Positions 556 through 6,788 of a stretch of DNA of 6,788 nucleotides are shown here, piece after piece. Source of the stretch: Desulfotignum sp. (lineage in GTDB: Bacteria > Desulfobacterota > Desulfobacteria > Desulfobacterales > Desulfobacteraceae). How positions within the stretch are numbered: position 1 is the first letter of the stretch; the number at the start of each line of letters is the position of its first letter. The stretch lies in the NCBI GenBank assembly GCA_011390235.1, contig JAABSS010000031.1, positions 1 through 6,788 on the forward strand, in the 5' to 3' direction. The translations under genes were made by a program, and so were the position numbers. The notes beneath the pieces were generated by a model. The model saw nothing but the letters and a program-made list of their open reading frames with translations, was not told the DNA's origin and did no database searches.

Positions 556-586
556 ATTATACGGGTCTGTTTGTTTAACAGGTCAA
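556..586 (-). promoter_or_regulatory. Candidate sigma70 promoter for the SOUL gene
   Basis: On the minus strand, TTGACC (586-581) and a perfect TATAAT (561-556) are separated by 19 bp. That is longer than the preferred 17, but both boxes are good. The -35 box overlaps the cphA stop codon (585-583). Transcription would start near 549, giving a leader of about 36 nt before the ATG at 513. This suggests the SOUL gene can be transcribed independently of cphBA. It is prediction from sequence only. Confidence 0.5.
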
Positions 587-3195
587 ATGTGTGTCACAAG
601 CTTTCGATATTTTTCAATAATTTGGCTCATGACAGGTTCAAGCTCATCGGGTTGAATGACCAGCAGGTCTCCTTGTTGTGCTCTTGAAAAAAGGGCATCC
701 ACAGCCTTGTGCGGTTCCGGAACAATTTCAATATGTTCTTTGCGGAAACCACCCTGAATCAATCCCTGATAGACCAGGTCCGGGGTTTCCCCGATGGGTC
801 TGTCCCGCGGGTCAAAATCAGTCAGCAGGATATAATCGTAGACCGAAGCCAGGGCCTTTCCATAGTCAATGATCTGTTCGGTGGTCCGGTTTCCGGTCCC
901 ATGGCACAGGGCGACCTTTCTGCCTGGTGAAAGTCGCGGCAGTAACCGGGACATGGCACGGGCGGATTCCGGATTATGGCCGTAATCCAACAGGACTTTG
1001 AATTTCTGGAAATCGAATAAATTCATGCGGCCGGGGTTTTGATTCGGCGTGGGATAAAATGTCATAATTCCATTCCGAATCTGATCAACGGGGATGTTCA
1101 CACCATGCAACGCACCTATTGCAGCAAGGGTGTTTGAGATGTTAAAATCGATCATTCCGTCAAAAGTAATGGGGATTTCTTCCAGCGTGCAAATGTTGAT
1201 ATCCAATTCACTGTCTCTGATAATCACATTTCGGCCGACCAGCGTGACAGCGACCCCACCGTTTTTTACATGCGCCTTAATCCTTTGATTATTTGGGTCC
1301 AAAGAAAATAAAATCACATTTCCCCGGGCACGGTCCAGAATCGTCATGGTTGTTTTGTCATCTGCATTTAAAACAGAAAATCCGGTCTTCTTGACAACCT
1401 CCACCACGGTGGATTTTATCATGCACAGATCTTCCTGGGTCTCTATCCAGTCACTGCCCAGGTGATCCTTTCCAATGTTCAGCACAACTCCCACATCAAC
1501 CTCGCTGACGCCAAGGCCTCGCCTGACGATTCCCCCGCGGGCAACTTCCAGGACAATGTGGTCCACCGATGGTTCCCTGAGAACAATACCGGCACCCTCC
1601 GGGCCGCTGTAATCTCCGGATAAAATCGGTTTTCCATCAATTACAACACCGGTAGTACAGGTCAGACCGACTGTTTTTCCTGAATATTTGAGTGTATGGG
1701 CAATAAGTTTGCAGGTTGTTGTTTTGCCGTTTGTTCCGGTTACGGCTAAAACGGGAATGTTTGCATACCCCATGGGAAAGAGCATGTCCACAACCGGCTT
1801 TGCAACATTCCGGGGCCGCCCTTGTGTGGGCTCAAGATGCATGCGGAATCCAGGTGCGGCATTCACTTCGACCACCTTAAGGCCGGAGGACTCAAGGGGC
1901 AATGAGATGTCTTTTGCCAGCACATCAACCCCCACACAGTCCAGTCCGATAATCCGGGCGGCCCGTTCAGCCATGAAGCGGATATCCGGGCTGACCTCAT
2001 CGGTAACATCTGTGGCAGTCCCCCCCTGGCTGAGATTGGCCGTGGCTTTAAGATAGACCACCGCATGGTTTTCAGGGACAGAATCTATGGAAAGGCCTTT
2101 TAAAGCCAGAAGCCTTTGGGTCATGTCATCGACTTCGATCTGTGTGAGCACCTTTTCATGCCCAAACCCGCGATGGGGATCGGAATTGACGGCCTGGATC
2201 AGATCATGGATGGAAGATGTTCCATCACCAATGACATGGGCCGGTTCTCTTTTTGCCGCAGCGATAAAATTGCCGTTAATGACCAGAAGACGAAAATCAC
2301 CGCCCTTGACGTATTCTTCGACAATAACATCGGGGTGGTAGGCATGGGCTGCATGAAACGCCATCTTCAACTGCCCGGGATCGGTCACATTAATGGTGGA
2401 CCCGTTTCCATGATTTCCCACATCCGGCTTGACGACAACGGCTGTGCCAAGTTGTTTAAAAACGGTGAGTGCCTCTTCTTCGGAAGATGTCACCCGGCCC
2501 TCAGGTACGGGAATTCCTGCTTTTTTTAAATAGGTTTTCACCCGGGTTTTTTCGTCGGCCGTTTCCACGGCAATGGCTGAGGTCTGACAGGTGATCGAGG
2601 CCTGAATCTGTTTTTGGTGTGCGCCATGACCCAATTGGATATGGCTGTCCTGGTTCAGCCGGATAAAGGGAATCCCTCTGGACTGCGCCTCTTTGACAAT
2701 ACTCCAGGTCGTGGGGCCCAGCATATGGGCTTCCCGCAGAACCTTGAGATCGGAAACCGCCTGGTCGACATCAAAATATTTTTCCCGGGCAACGGATTCA
2801 AACAAAGATACGGCAATTTCGGCCGCCTTTAACCCGGCAGATTCCACCAGGTATCTAAAGACCACAAGATAAATGCCCCTTTGAGATGTATCCAGGGTTT
2901 TGCCGAATCCGACGCTCATCCCGGCCAGACATTGAAGTTCAATGGCAATATGCTCAATAATATGACCGGCCCAGGTGCCTCTCTCAAGGCGCTGGATAAA
3001 GCCGCCGGGTTTTCCAATCGAGCAGCCGTGTTCCTGAAGCGTTGGCATAAGTGTCAACAAGCGGTTTGAAAACCCGTCCATCTTATCCGATGGCAGATCC
3101 TCATAGTCGTCAATATCCAGAACCATAAATATGGCGGTATGCCGGGTGTGCCGGTTTGGACCGCGTAATGCTCTTAGTTCTTTAATCTCAATCAT
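583..3195 (-). CDS. cphA: Cyanophycin synthetase
   Basis: The 870-residue product makes multi-L-arginyl-poly-L-aspartate (cyanophycin) from Asp, Arg and ATP, acting as a cytoplasmic nitrogen-storage enzyme. The length is typical of CphA1. Three regions follow in order. The N domain (about 1-160) carries HIIEH (His78, Glu81, His82), the metallopeptidase-like motif reported to trim polymer into primers. An ATP-grasp domain (about 161-475) carries VVVKPDVGNHGNG (253-265), the FRLLVINGNFIAAAKREPA segment (301-319) and VVEVNAAPGF (441-450). A Mur-ligase-like domain (about 480-870) carries the P-loop GTNGKTT (487-493), NIGKDHLG (573-580) and LLDYGHNPES (735-744). The intact P-loop separates it from CphA2-type enzymes, which lack it. 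The start ATG overlaps the cphB stop as ATGA, and AGGAG (plus-strand 3201-3205) sits 5 bp upstream. The stop is TGA. One oddity is Asn264 in the glycine-rich ATP-grasp loop, where I recall Arg in cyanobacterial enzymes. Confidence 0.96.
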   Translation of the reverse strand: MIEIKELRALRGPNRHTRHTAIFMVLDIDDYEDLPSDKMDGFSNRLLTLMPTLQEHGCSIGKPGGFIQRLERGTWAGHIIEHIAIELQCLAGMSVGFGKTLDTSQRGIYLVVFRYLVESAGLKAAEIAVSLFESVAREKYFDVDQAVSDLKVLREAHMLGPTTWSIVKEAQSRGIPFIRLNQDSHIQLGHGAHQKQIQASITCQTSAIAVETADEKTRVKTYLKKAGIPVPEGRVTSSEEEALTVFKQLGTAVVVKPDVGNHGNGSTINVTDPGQLKMAFHAAHAYHPDVIVEEYVKGGDFRLLVINGNFIAAAKREPAHVIGDGTSSIHDLIQAVNSDPHRGFGHEKVLTQIEVDDMTQRLLALKGLSIDSVPENHAVVYLKATANLSQGGTATDVTDEVSPDIRFMAERAARIIGLDCVGVDVLAKDISLPLESSGLKVVEVNAAPGFRMHLEPTQGRPRNVAKPVVDMLFPMGYANIPVLAVTGTNGKTTTCKLIAHTLKYSGKTVGLTCTTGVVIDGKPILSGDYSGPEGAGIVLREPSVDHIVLEVARGGIVRRGLGVSEVDVGVVLNIGKDHLGSDWIETQEDLCMIKSTVVEVVKKTGFSVLNADDKTTMTILDRARGNVILFSLDPNNQRIKAHVKNGGVAVTLVGRNVIIRDSELDINICTLEEIPITFDGMIDFNISNTLAAIGALHGVNIPVDQIRNGIMTFYPTPNQNPGRMNLFDFQKFKVLLDYGHNPESARAMSRLLPRLSPGRKVALCHGTGNRTTEQIIDYGKALASVYDYILLTDFDPRDRPIGETPDLVYQGLIQGGFRKEHIEIVPEPHKAVDALFSRAQQGDLLVIQPDELEPVMSQIIEKYRKLVTHI

Positions 3196-4031
3196 AGAGA
3201 CTCCTGTATGGGTAATGACGATGGCTTGAGAAACCGTCTTTTTTTAAAATGGTACCCATATCCATCCACCAGCGAATGAATTCGAACATTTTCCACGGCA
3301 ATGGGTTCCCCCGGGAGGATGTCCATGATATTGGACACCCCGATACCGCATCCATCAACAATGATAACCTGCCCGGAACCCACAACCTCGGCAACCCCGT
3401 CTCCCCTGAGGATCACGCCTGAATCTTCCCCAATACCGACGCCGATGCAGGTTGGATTTGAAGTGACGATCTGAATCAACCGTCCAATCCGTCCCCGGGC
3501 CATAAAATGCGTGTCAAAAATAATTTTATCCACAAACCCGAACCCGGATGTTGAAAGAACACTGCCTTTGAACAGTCCTTCTTCACTTTTACCTTCATAA
3601 ATCATGGTGTCGGAAAACACGGCTGCCCCGGCACTGGTCCCTGCGATAAGCCCGCCATTTTCAAGATGTGCCTGAATGGCGTCAAATATCCTTGTTCCCC
3701 CCATGATCGTTGTCAGCCGCAACTGGTCTCCTCCCGTAAAAAAGATCAAGTCAAGGTCTGCGATGGTTTTGGCTGTTTTTCTGTCATTGGCCTGACCTCT
3801 TTCTTTGATGTTGAATATGTCTATCCTGGATGCACCAAGCGTCGTAAATACGCTGTGATAGTCTTTGCCGCGCTGTTCAGGATCTTCGCTTGCTGTGGTG
3901 ACGACACCGACCTTGAATTTGGTTTTCCCGATTTCCTGGACCACGCGTTTGAGGACGATCAGTTCATTTGCCTTGTCTTCGTTACCGCCAATGGCTATCA
4001 GGCGACCTGAGAATATTGGGTTCAATACCAT
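3192..4031 (-). CDS. cphB: Cyanophycinase (peptidase family S51)
   Basis: The 279-residue product hydrolyses cyanophycin to beta-Asp-Arg dipeptides. There is no signal peptide, so it should act in the cytoplasm on the host's own polymer rather than as a secreted scavenger. Visible motifs are RLIAIGGNED (10-19), FFTGGDQ (97-103), the nucleophile elbow GTSAGA (131-136) with Ser133, DTHFMARGRIGRL (173-185) with the probable catalytic His175 and conserved Arg residues, and GIGEDSG (199-205) with the probable catalytic Glu202. The length matches the family (about 270-290). The ATG at 4031 has AGGGG (plus-strand 4039-4043) 7 bp upstream. The gene is first in the cphB-cphA operon and overlaps cphA by 4 bp, implying coupled translation of degrading and synthesising enzymes. 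One substitution stands out: DTHF, where I recall DQHF in the cyanobacterial enzyme. Confidence 0.95.
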   Translation of the reverse strand: MVLNPIFSGRLIAIGGNEDKANELIVLKRVVQEIGKTKFKVGVVTTASEDPEQRGKDYHSVFTTLGASRIDIFNIKERGQANDRKTAKTIADLDLIFFTGGDQLRLTTIMGGTRIFDAIQAHLENGGLIAGTSAGAAVFSDTMIYEGKSEEGLFKGSVLSTSGFGFVDKIIFDTHFMARGRIGRLIQIVTSNPTCIGVGIGEDSGVILRGDGVAEVVGSGQVIIVDGCGIGVSNIMDILPGEPIAVENVRIHSLVDGYGYHFKKRRFLKPSSLPIQESL

Positions 4032-4917: not shown

Positions 4918-4923
4918 AGGAGG
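4918..4923 (+). promoter_or_regulatory. Strong ribosome binding site of the selenopeptide gene
   Basis: A perfect AGGAGG lies 8 bp before the ATG at 4932-4934. It decides the start: without it the 35-codon frame ending at the first TGA would be dismissed as noise. Confidence 0.8.
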
Positions 4924-4931
4924 GAACAGGT

Positions 4932-5291
4932 ATGGATCAAAAAGAACTGAAAAAAGTATTGGCCGGATTTTGTGTCGCCGGTCTTCTTTCCGGTTCTTCT
5001 GCCGTATTGCCCCCTGTCTGCATTGCCGGCAGTGGTTGAGGCGATAAAAAATCGGGAACAGGTAGTTCCCAGAGCGGCTGAAGCGGAGAAAAACCGGAGG
5101 CAGTTAGCCCCCAAAGTGGCTGAAGTGGGAACTCGAATGGTGCAGGTGGCACCATAGCAGAACCCCAGAAAGAGGCCAAAAAACAAAAACCCCAAAGTGG
5201 CTGAAGTGGGAATTCAGATGGTGCAGGTGGCACCACAGGAGAATCCCAGAATGAAGTCAAAGAACAAAAACCCAAAAGCGGTTGAGGTTAG
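4932..5291 (+). CDS. Multi-selenocysteine RiPP precursor peptide (five in-frame UGA codons)
   Basis: Read with UGA as selenocysteine, the frame gives 119 residues from ATG 4932 to TAG 5289-5291. The UGAs at 5037, 5079, 5121, 5202 and 5283 give Sec at residues 36, 50, 64, 91 and 118, always as Ser-Gly-Sec-(Ser/Gly). Residues 1-35 form a leader: a charged start (MDQKELKK), then a hydrophobic Gly/Ala/Ser-rich stretch with Cys14 and Cys30. The core is Gly/Ser/Lys/Gln-rich and repetitive, with Sec spacing 14, 14, 27 and 27. Residues 65-91 and 92-118 are tandem copies. Every UGA has a SECIS-like hairpin beginning a constant distance downstream. A radical SAM maturase follows after 65 bp. cphA and cphB end in TGA, which argues against genome-wide UGA reassignment. 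From memory this fits the selenocysteine target peptides predicted by Haft and Basu (2011). The alternative, a gene degraded by five nonsense mutations, would not explain the identical codon contexts. The mature product and function are unknown. Confidence 0.88.
5054..5070 (+). promoter_or_regulatory. SECIS-like hairpin 1 (for UGA at 5037)
   Basis: GGGAAC (5054-5059) pairs perfectly with GTTCCC (5065-5070), with the five-base loop AGGTA. The loop starts 23 nt after the U of the UGA and carries GGU, as in the E. coli fdhF SECIS loop recalled as AGGUCU. Confidence 0.75.
5096..5112 (+). promoter_or_regulatory. SECIS-like hairpin 2 (for UGA at 5079), weakest of the five
   Basis: GGAGGC (5096-5101) pairs with GCCCCC (5107-5112) apart from one A-C mismatch; the loop is AGTTA. 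It starts 23 nt after the U of the UGA, exactly as in hairpin 1. The loop has GUU rather than GGU. Confidence 0.55.
5137..5155 (+). promoter_or_regulatory. SECIS-like hairpin 3 (for UGA at 5121)
   Basis: ATGGTGC (5137-5143) and GCACCAT (5149-5155) form seven perfect pairs around loop AGGTG, again starting 23 nt after the U. The upper stem and loop closely resemble the E. coli fdhF SECIS tip as I recall it, but without its bulged U. Confidence 0.8.
5219..5235 (+). promoter_or_regulatory. SECIS-like hairpin 4 (for UGA at 5202)
   Basis: TGGTGC (5219-5224) and GCACCA (5230-5235) form six perfect pairs around loop AGGTG, starting 23 nt after the U. The tip is identical to hairpin 3 although bases around it differ between the two repeat units. 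Confidence 0.78.
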
Positions 5292-5297
5292 TCCATT

Positions 5298-5314
5298 TCA
5301 TGCGGTTCGCATGA
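5298..5314 (+). promoter_or_regulatory. SECIS-like hairpin 5, beyond the stop codon (for UGA at 5283)
   Basis: TCATGC (5298-5303) and GCATGA (5309-5314) form six perfect pairs around loop GGTTC. The loop starts 21 nt after the U, two bases earlier than in the other four. It lies entirely after the TAG at 5289-5291, so coding constraint does not explain it. Confidence 0.65.
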
Positions 5315-5356: not shown

Positions 5357-6788
5357 ATGACCGAATCTTTTAATCAGTTAGCCGAATATTTTCCCATCTG
5401 CCGCAGGATCCTTGGACACAACGCCTGGGAAAGGATCCTGTCGGCATTGGAACATTCCGGGCCTTGGAATTTTGTCCAGTATATCAGCGATGTCCAGGGG
5501 AAAATTGACGTTCCGGAATACCTTGCGGATACCGCATTGCTGGAATTCAATTATCAAAAGTTGCGCAGGAATCCAGGACGCAACCCGCAAAGTGTGGGTA
5601 CCATGATGGTTAACCCCGACCTTCATCTGATTCCAAGCCAGTGGCGGAATCTTTCTTTCCTGTTCAATTCGGAAGACACCCTGAGACAAGCCGCGCCGGA
5701 GAAAAAAGACTGTCATGTCCTGGTCTGGCGTCATCCGGCAACCGGGAAGGTGTTGTGCCGGGAGGCCTTTGATGAAGACCTTCTCGCACTCAAACTGATA
5801 GTGGATGCCATCGACATCAAGGAGGCTGCAAGCGAGGTGGAAACGCCGCCTGGAAAACTGATGGCCATTCTCCATCGCGCCGTTGACGATGGACTCCTGA
5901 TAACTCCTGAATCCGGTATCTGCAGGGACCCTGAATACTTTCCAGCAGATGGGTTCCCCCCCTCTTTTTTAAAAACTGACGTGTTTACCCTGCAATGGCA
6001 TATCACCCAGGTCTGTGATCTGCACTGCAGGCACTGCTATGACAGAAGTGACCGGACGAGACTGTCTCTTGCCGATGCCCAGTGTGTTTTGGATACGTTA
6101 TTTGATTTCATACAAAAAATGAATGCCAGAGGGCATGTGACCTTTACCGGCGGAAACCCCCTGCTTTATCCGGACTTTACGGAGCTGTATCAAAGGGCGG
6201 CAGACATGGGGTTTTCTATCGCAATTTTGGGTAATCCTGCTTCCGCTGACATTCTTGACACCCTGCTGGATATACAGCCCATGACCCATTTTCAGATCAG
6301 CCTGGAAGGTCTTGAGACCTATAACGACTATATCCGCGGTCCCGGACATTATAAACGGTCACTTTCTTTTCTGGAAAAACTCCGGGAAAAAAACATTTAT
6401 TCAATGGTCATGCTGACACTGAACCGGGACAACATGGACCAGGTCCTCCCCCTTGCAGAGGTCTTGAAGGACAGGGCGGATTCCTTTACATTCAACCGGC
6501 TGGCCATGGTGGGGGAGGCGGAGACATTAAGCCTGCCGACCCCACAGGATTTCAAATCCTTTCTAAATGACTATGTCAGTGCAGCCCAATCCAATCCTGT
6601 CCTGAGTTTAAAAGACAATTTGATAAACCTTGTCAAAGCTGAAAACGGATTCGAACTGTTTGGGGGGTGTACCGGACACGGCTGCGGTGCCGCATTCAAT
6701 TTCGTATCACTTCTTCCCGATGGAGAAGTTCATGCCTGCCGAAAATTTCCTTCCATGATCGGAAATGTCAAAGAAGACTCTCTTTTGA
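5357..6788 (+). CDS. Radical SAM/SPASM peptide maturase, selenobiotic type, 3' end cut by window
   Basis: 477 codons are visible and the frame is open at the window end (the terminal tga is out of frame). Residues 1-110 match nothing I recognise. Residues about 118-183 resemble a PqqD-like RiPP recognition element: short strands (VLVWRHPATGKVLC), then a winged-helix-like stretch ending AVDDGLLI. The radical SAM core starts near 209 with CDLHCRHC (Cys220, Cys224, Cys227) for the SAM-binding 4Fe-4S cluster, followed by TGGNPLL (264-270, the GGEP-type motif with Asn for Glu). Cysteines 438, 443 and 461 in GGCTGHGC and VHACRKFP begin a SPASM-type domain for further clusters; the rest lies outside. 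Such enzymes modify a peptide encoded next door, here most likely the selenopeptide 65 bp upstream. ATG 5357 is the only start before an in-frame stop at 5333, yet no good Shine-Dalgarno precedes it. Confidence 0.87.
   Translation, partial: MTESFNQLAEYFPICRRILGHNAWERILSALEHSGPWNFVQYISDVQGKIDVPEYLADTALLEFNYQKLRRNPGRNPQSVGTMMVNPDLHLIPSQWRNLSFLFNSEDTLRQAAPEKKDCHVLVWRHPATGKVLCREAFDEDLLALKLIVDAIDIKEAASEVETPPGKLMAILHRAVDDGLLITPESGICRDPEYFPADGFPPSFLKTDVFTLQWHITQVCDLHCRHCYDRSDRTRLSLADAQCVLDTLFDFIQKMNARGHVTFTGGNPLLYPDFTELYQRAADMGFSIAILGNPASADILDTLLDIQPMTHFQISLEGLETYNDYIRGPGHYKRSLSFLEKLREKNIYSMVMLTLNRDNMDQVLPLAEVLKDRADSFTFNRLAMVGEAETLSLPTPQDFKSFLNDYVSAAQSNPVLSLKDNLINLVKAENGFELFGGCTGHGCGAAFNFVSLLPDGEVHACRKFPSMIGNVKEDSLL

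Follow-up and report, generated by a model that had tools for sequence, protein, structure and literature searches.

The sbtA–sbtM locus

The window, by which we mean the whole stretch of DNA that was analysed (6,788 nucleotides), contains on its forward strand a short gene, sbtA, with five in-frame UGA codons, and next to it the gene of a radical SAM maturase, sbtM. The features of the two genes are as follows.

4918–4923, plus strand: AGGAGG ribosome binding site, 8 nt 5′ of the ATG, from the sequence
4932–5291, plus strand: SbtA precursor, 119 residues if its UGAs are taken as selenocysteine (Sec), ATG at 4932, TAG at 5289–5291, match to TIGR04081
4932–5012, plus strand: SbtA leader, residues 1–27, the part matching TIGR04081, signal-peptide-like
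5037–5039, plus strand: UGA 1, residue 36, SG-U-G
5079–5081, plus strand: UGA 2, residue 50, SG-U-S
5121–5123, plus strand: UGA 3, residue 64, SG-U-S
5202–5204, plus strand: UGA 4, residue 91, SG-U-S
5283–5285, plus strand: UGA 5, residue 118, SG-U-G, one codon 5′ of the TAG stop
5109–5285, plus strand: 81-bp tandem repeat, 2.2 copies, containing UGA 3, 4 and 5
5357–6788, plus strand: SbtM radical SAM/SPASM maturase, cut by the end of the window, with 477 residues present of the 537 in P0002

The sequence-only reading of this DNA had described a strong ribosome binding site and five TGA codons, all in the context Ser-Gly-TGA-(Ser/Gly), ahead of a TAG. Both descriptions are correct: AGGAGG lies 8 nt ahead of the ATG at 4932, and the TGA codons begin at 5037, 5079, 5121, 5202, and 5283, with the context SG-U-(S/G) at 5/5 and a spacing of 14, 14, 27, and 27 residues. 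The number of TGA codons is in itself ordinary, as there are 21 other TAA/TAG-free frames of at least 60 codons in the window with 4 to 10 TGAs; none of these 21 has all its TGAs in one shared context. What exceeds chance in sbtA is the shared context of the UGAs, the fact that its leader matches a curated family, and the hairpins described below.

It had also been anticipated that annotation would truncate sbtA at 35 residues or call spurious frames instead, and the truncation is borne out. A public protein, P0122, consists of 35 SbtA residues identical to those of the window and ends at the first UGA, and the stub of 35 residues is shorter than a frame antisense to sbtA (4937–5275, minus strand, 112 aa). 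A group of minus-strand frames recurs in 9 loci, and its representative, in L001, is antisense to SbtA. When the five-Sec peptide was compared with the protein database with C in place of U, the sole match was P0122, and nothing was found that reads past the first UGA. The plasmid collection, searched in 'near' mode, gave no DNA similar to the window. Since ordinary gene calling truncates the gene at the first UGA, as in P0122, the SbtA family is probably undercounted.

Residues 1–27 of SbtA match NCBIfam TIGR04081 (thio(seleno)oxazole RiPP precursor) with 50 bits, against a cut-off of 30.5. The SbtM reading frame starts at 5357, 65 nt past the TAG stop of sbtA, and although it is cut by the window it scores 600 bits with TIGR04082 (cut-off 350); P0002, a full-length SbtM that is 100% identical over the shared part, scores 690 bits. 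Because both genes are over their NCBIfam cut-offs, the SbtA/SbtM system is already known. Thus, the earlier proposal that the peptide is a precursor of the selenocysteine-type RiPPs stands, but it does not represent a new kind. That the product would be a modified selenium peptide is supported by the TIGR04081 leader, the adjoining radical SAM maturase, and the hairpins behind the UGAs.

The three cysteines of the CxxxCxxC motif of SbtM, C220, C224, and C227, are invariant across 26 sequences. The SPASM domain is over the cut-off in P0002 and below it in the cut ORF of the window. Among named SbtM proteins, the highest identity is to one from a Desulfotignum MAG (92%, across 65% of the query); another, from a Desulfobacterales MAG, aligns along 100% of the query with 78% identity. 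The next-best family for SbtM is the radical SAM/SPASM protein of the ACGX system (TIGR04340), with 137 bits for the window ORF and 181 bits for P0002, both of which stay below the cut-off of 400; UGA cores are not known to be part of the ACGX system. The RiPP maturases SkfB, SuiB, and CteB (6efn, 5v1s, and 5wgg) differ from SbtM in their products, as they form thioether or carbon–carbon crosslinks, not oxazoles. In the model of SbtM, strands at 90–97, 115–125, and 132–136 are followed by three helices (residues 90–177), and this strand–strand–strand–helix–helix–helix order is that of RiPP recognition elements. An N-terminal domain of that kind, suspected from the order of the elements, was not confirmed; Pfam gave nothing in this region, and the fold comparison covered residues 192–477.

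Comparison with published SbtA and SbtM

PMC11002830 describes a Sec insertion element directly 3′ of the TGA in a predicted SbtA precursor, and reports that SbtM removes four hydrogens from both Cys- and SeCys-containing substrates and that the Cys product is a thiooxazole by NMR. The SbtM in question, WP_083768621, is the enzyme of Lewis et al. 2021, as cited there. Thus, a SECIS after the UGA of SbtA is not new; it is already in print. The published system and that of the window have the same leader family, the same maturase family, the SG-U-(S/G) core, the precursor beside the maturase, and, behind the TGA, an element for Sec insertion, which in the window is predicted. They differ in the number of cores. 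The window's SbtA has five UGA cores, three of them within the 81-bp tandem repeat, whereas the entry in a 2026 review (PMC13188914), under 'Selenobacteriocin', TIGR04081, and SGUG, lists two Sec. According to the same review, a single Sec is found in most families of prokaryotic selenoproteins, and 2–3 in a small subset. In the literature covered, namely titles and abstracts, with subscription journals mostly outside its scope, we found no five-Sec SbtA and no spacer imprint of the kind described below.

Many Sec residues per chain are also found in animal selenoprotein P; the likeness to the window's SbtA is one of number. Selenoprotein P depends on the eukaryotic SECIS in the 3′ UTR, not on one hairpin per UGA.

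Predicted hairpins behind the five UGAs

A hairpin is predicted behind each UGA of sbtA. Scores in bits are those of a covariance model built from 59 sites of relatives, with the window left out.

5054–5070, plus strand: predicted SECIS core hairpin of UGA 1, loop AGGUA, 24.4 bits (match at 5037)
5096–5112, plus strand: predicted SECIS core hairpin of UGA 2, loop AGUUA, −5.5 kcal/mol, 38.1 bits (match at 5079)
5138–5154, plus strand: predicted SECIS core hairpin of UGA 3, loop AGGUG, 16.1 bits (match at 5124, right after the UGA)
5219–5235, plus strand: predicted SECIS core hairpin of UGA 4, loop AGGUG, 34.6 bits (match at 5202)
5298–5314, plus strand: predicted hairpin of UGA 5, past the stop, loop GUU, −14.9 kcal/mol, 3.5 bits

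The match for UGA 3 begins at position 4 of the model because the match for UGA 2 covers its UGA. The bSECIS rule, as quoted in PMC13188914, places the apical loop 16–37 nt after the UGA and asks for a loop of 3–9 nt with G in the first two positions, a stem of 4–16 pairs, and an energy of −7.5 kcal/mol or lower. Within this search range of 16–37 nt, the loops after UGA 1 to 5 start at 20, 20, 20, 20, and 19 nt. The loops and stems all agree with the rule (10, 5, 14, 14, and 15 pairs, bulges allowed). The energies range from −5.5 to −16.8 kcal/mol, and the energy limit is passed at 4/5 sites, the exception being UGA 2 (−5.5). Shuffled sequences gave better hairpins than the native one in 4/20 cases for UGA 1, 9/20 for UGA 2, and 0/20 for each of UGA 3, 4, and 5.

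The covariance model gives a complementary result. Four of the UGA sites in the window are its four best matches, and the next-best match in the window has E 0.71. The hairpin of UGA 2 is weak by energy, yet it is the best match of all. The hairpin of UGA 5 is of a different type, strong by energy and scarcely seen by the model. Rfam showed no match at the sbtA hairpins and one sub-threshold match elsewhere in the window.

SbtA relatives and their cores

Several sources supplied the relatives of SbtA: the 80 best among 308 loci that surround SbtM relatives in named genomes, 86 genomes of one family, 395 genomes of the phylum, and additional stretches. A TIGR04081 match (E 0.001) was found in 39/395 phylum genomes, and 15/80 of the SbtM-relative loci gave no SbtA match. 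Three of 116 leader matches were dropped as false (L037 on the minus strand, L151, and L153), and the set comprises 113 distinct peptides, that of the window included. There are five UGA cores in one peptide (the window's), four in 4, three in 52, two in 36, one in 11, and none in 9, with a UGA right after the last core counted as a stop (16 peptides). The SbtA of the window has the most UGA sites among the 113 distinct peptides, the other 112 having 0 to 4. Its SGUG-stop C-terminus is also seen in the close relatives L001, L081, and L083.

The expectation that homologs would have U or C at the UGA positions is in agreement with the set, as the cores of the relatives alternate UGA with Cys; the context of the family's cores is partly built in, because a rule based on the adjacent residues served to select the core sites. 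Cys-only peptides are found in L012, L030, L031, L047, L058, and L087, of which L012 was counted here because its only UGA is its stop. L051 was classed as UGA-type by hand, the core rule having given no UGA. Both kinds of core occur together in the peptides of L013, L016, L046, L068, L083, and others. Two SbtA paralogs per locus were seen in L134, L118, L132, L135, L033, L035, L036, L045, L048, and L149; in L134, the cores of one paralog are all UGA and those of the other are Cys. In 16 peptides, for example those of L005, L014, and L021, the C-terminus resembles SGUSU, with a second UGA at most three codons past the last core. This second UGA is probably the true stop, which would place a Sec codon and a stop UGA almost side by side.

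Hairpins across the family

Of 260 UGA sites (the five of the window included), 234 passed the bSECIS rule, compared with 44% of dinucleotide shuffles. The corresponding figures are 27/64 for core Cys sites (38% of shuffles) and 30/46 for lipobox Cys sites, which lie just 5′ of the first hairpin (57% of shuffles). The commonest register, in which a loop of 5 nt starts at 20 nt, was also applied to the 258 distinct UGA sites with no selection by folding, and 118 of them pair at five or more of six positions. When the arms were swapped among sites in 200 rounds, the mean was 35 and the maximum 49. For the 64 Cys sites, no register is prominent.

The alignment A2 contains 59 sites and leaves out the window. 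Pairing is seen in 90.7% of its cells, and 74 cells carry a change on each side, compared with 24 in shuffles and 10–28 with slid partners. These pair counts lean towards structure, because the 68 sites from which A2 was drawn are one folding site per locus with the loop at 20–21 nt; nine near-duplicates were removed from the 68 by hand.

The last UGA site is followed by at most five residues before the stop in 84 of 104 cases, and 76 of these 84 pass the bSECIS rule; a SECIS reaching past the stop is therefore common in the SbtA family. In L001, L081, and L083, a different palindrome is found at the same distance after the terminal SGUG UGA. Among 14 pairs of UGAs that are 3–8 codons apart, 7 (L057:968, L016:2376, L036:3304, L009:32, L126:1501, L127:1501, and L140:1501) have both UGAs folding with the same loop, at distances of 26/17, 35/17, or 35/20 nt. 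Thus, one SECIS may serve two Sec codons.

The spacer between cores

The residues that follow a UGA core are not those that follow a Cys core. The motif [SG][AT][GV][SGT][TSA] at +4 to +12 is present in 125/161 distinct UGA windows and 1/51 Cys windows (windows of at least 11 residues, made distinct); the motif, of the GAGGT/SAVST type, was framed with the peptides already in view, and the counts are uncorrected for relatedness. Within peptides that have both kinds of core, it follows 15/15 UGA and 1/23 Cys windows, where windows of less than 9 residues and L012 are omitted. The single exception among the 23 is in L013, and L083 has a worn form, GADGT. Furthermore, the Gly at +8 is encoded by GGT in 53/91 cases, compared with 158/732 elsewhere in the same peptides (p 2e-12). 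Where GGT follows the UGA, it is mostly an in-frame Gly codon, at +16 (53 sites), +19 (27), +22 (70), and +25 (11) across 260 sites. Because the counts differ after UGA and Cys cores, we read the spacer as most likely the imprint of the RNA hairpin, not a signal for the maturase, and this is new here. If the spacer is conserved for the sake of the RNA rather than the maturase, then the substrate motif of SbtM needs a fresh reading.

Selenocysteine machinery in the genomes of relatives

SelB is over the cut-off in 47/50, 30/39, and 33/33 genomes of three sets. Since 221/247 genomes of the phylum also have SelB, SelB alone is weak evidence, and UGA-type loci were therefore compared with Cys-only loci. 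The genome has SelB for 90/96 UGA-type and 1/6 Cys-only loci (Fisher p 3e-5), and at least one Sec gene over the cut-off for 96/96 and 2/6 (p 4e-6), with p-values that ignore relatedness and gaps in MAGs. The six UGA-type genomes without SelB each keep at least one of SelA, SelD, and tRNA-Sec over the cut-off; G153 has SelA alone. The genomes of four of the six Cys-only loci have no SelA, SelB, or SelD over the cut-off, and two Cys-only SbtA loci are in Sec-capable genomes. G146, the genome of a Cys-only locus, has a tRNA-Sec match of 50.2 bits (limit 47 bits), which if counted would make the figure 3/6. This match was taken as an ordinary tRNA because the same score occurs beside a match of 74–75 bits in G138 and G144. 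SelA, SelB, SelD, and tRNA-Sec were all found in Desulfospira joergensenii (G013). Judged by its cyanophycin synthetase, whose closest named relative is from this species, the window likely comes from a member of the Desulfobacteraceae, and probably from a sulphate reducer.

Leader and neighbouring genes

A lipobox-like Cys is found in 59 of the 113 leaders, compared with 18% in shuffles, by a simple pattern and not a trained predictor. AxA is found in 28 more, and 26 have neither, among them that of the window (VLPPVCIAGSG), in which there is no strict lipobox and no AxA. In a second count over residues 17–36, the lipobox-like Cys is at residue 29 in 46/62 cases. In L017:3673, from the Olavius algarvensis Delta 4 endosymbiont, the position of the lipobox Cys is a TGA (TLSA-U-ATGK); this could be Sec at the site of lipid attachment or a base error in the MAG.

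SbtM adjoins SbtA in 76/81 loci, the cut ORF of the window not being among them. Apart from SbtM, no neighbour occurs in more than 10/81 loci (ORFs of at least 80 residues, flanks of up to 4 kb and often shorter), and the largest such group (10 loci) has a GGDEF protein as its representative. Among these ORFs, no conserved exporter or peptidase is found beside SbtA–SbtM in the 81 loci. Because the leaders are export-like and only SbtM is widely shared among neighbours of that size, an exported peptide is favoured and a classical bacteriocin disfavoured. The pattern speaks for SbtA peptides that would be exported by general secretion and not by a bacteriocin cassette.

Proposed mechanism and alternatives

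We are confident that the locus contains an SbtA precursor beside its SbtM maturase, in which the five UGAs are predicted to be read as Sec by means of their own hairpins, and that SbtM would likely convert the cores to seleno-oxazole rings. In the proposed mechanism, the mRNA presents five UGAs, each with a predicted hairpin whose apical loop is 19–20 nt downstream. SelB would bind each predicted hairpin and deliver Sec-tRNA, and the last hairpin would act on UGA 5 from beyond the stop codon. By analogy with the published chemistry of the relative, SbtM would then oxidise each Gly–Sec pair, with the loss of four hydrogens, to give a thio(seleno)oxazole. The final steps are the least certain: the leader may double as an export signal, which would bring the product to or outside the cytoplasmic membrane, and the row of ring-bound seleniums would likely be a ligand for metal or for redox chemistry. 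The largest doubt concerns the yield of the full-length product. With five UGAs in 119 residues, spaced by 42 or 81 nt and each with a predicted hairpin of its own, the gene offers a natural test of serial decoding of UGA in bacteria.

A more comprehensive reading would make the SbtA peptides exported strings of seleno-oxazoles with spacers dictated by the RNA, in which the 81-bp repeat has duplicated core and hairpin together, UGA 5 is decoded with the help of RNA past the stop, and the product is a metal or redox ligand of the envelope, not an antibiotic. We offer this combination tentatively, as a possibility and not as an expectation.

It is also conceivable, though we regard it as rather unlikely, that decoding is partial and gives a ladder of peptides ending at successive UGAs, with the five-Sec form rare and the short forms as the working product. 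Insertion of Sec in bacteria is inefficient, and the differing strengths of the predicted hairpins would fit such a ladder. However, all five UGAs have a hairpin at a like distance, and the last of these counts against the ladder, because it lies outside the coding region and would be useless unless ribosomes reach that far. A ladder can hold partly alongside the five-Sec peptide.

A role as a selenium-containing bacteriocin, with which the producer would kill its competitors, appears improbable. The name 'Selenobacteriocin', in the entry of PMC13188914 noted above, points in this direction, as does the fact that SbtA is a RiPP with a repeated core. However, no exporter or peptidase recurs among neighbours of at least 80 residues within at most 4 kb, where the largest non-SbtM group is that of 10/81 loci and a small immunity gene could escape, and the lipobox-like Cys of 59/113 leaders would tether the product.

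We rejected, as highly improbable, the explanation that sbtA is a decayed gene or a chance frame whose translation ends at 5037. It would account for P0122, which has the same 35 residues and ends at the first UGA, and TGA-rich frames are common in the window; but it does not fit the UGA context at 5/5, the hairpins, which covary in relatives, the Cys at relatives' cores, or the SGUG C-terminus shared with L001, L081, and L083.

A changed genetic code, with UGA read as some other amino acid throughout the organism, would equally leave the sbtA frame open, but it can be dismissed because the neighbouring genes of cyanophycin synthetase and cyanophycinase both end in TGA, the synthetase at 870 residues, which is the length of most listed homologs. 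These two genes form a pair beside the SbtA locus (583–4031, minus strand) that is not a recurring neighbour among the SbtA loci compared. The closest named relative of the window's cyanophycin synthetase is from Desulfospira joergensenii (91%).
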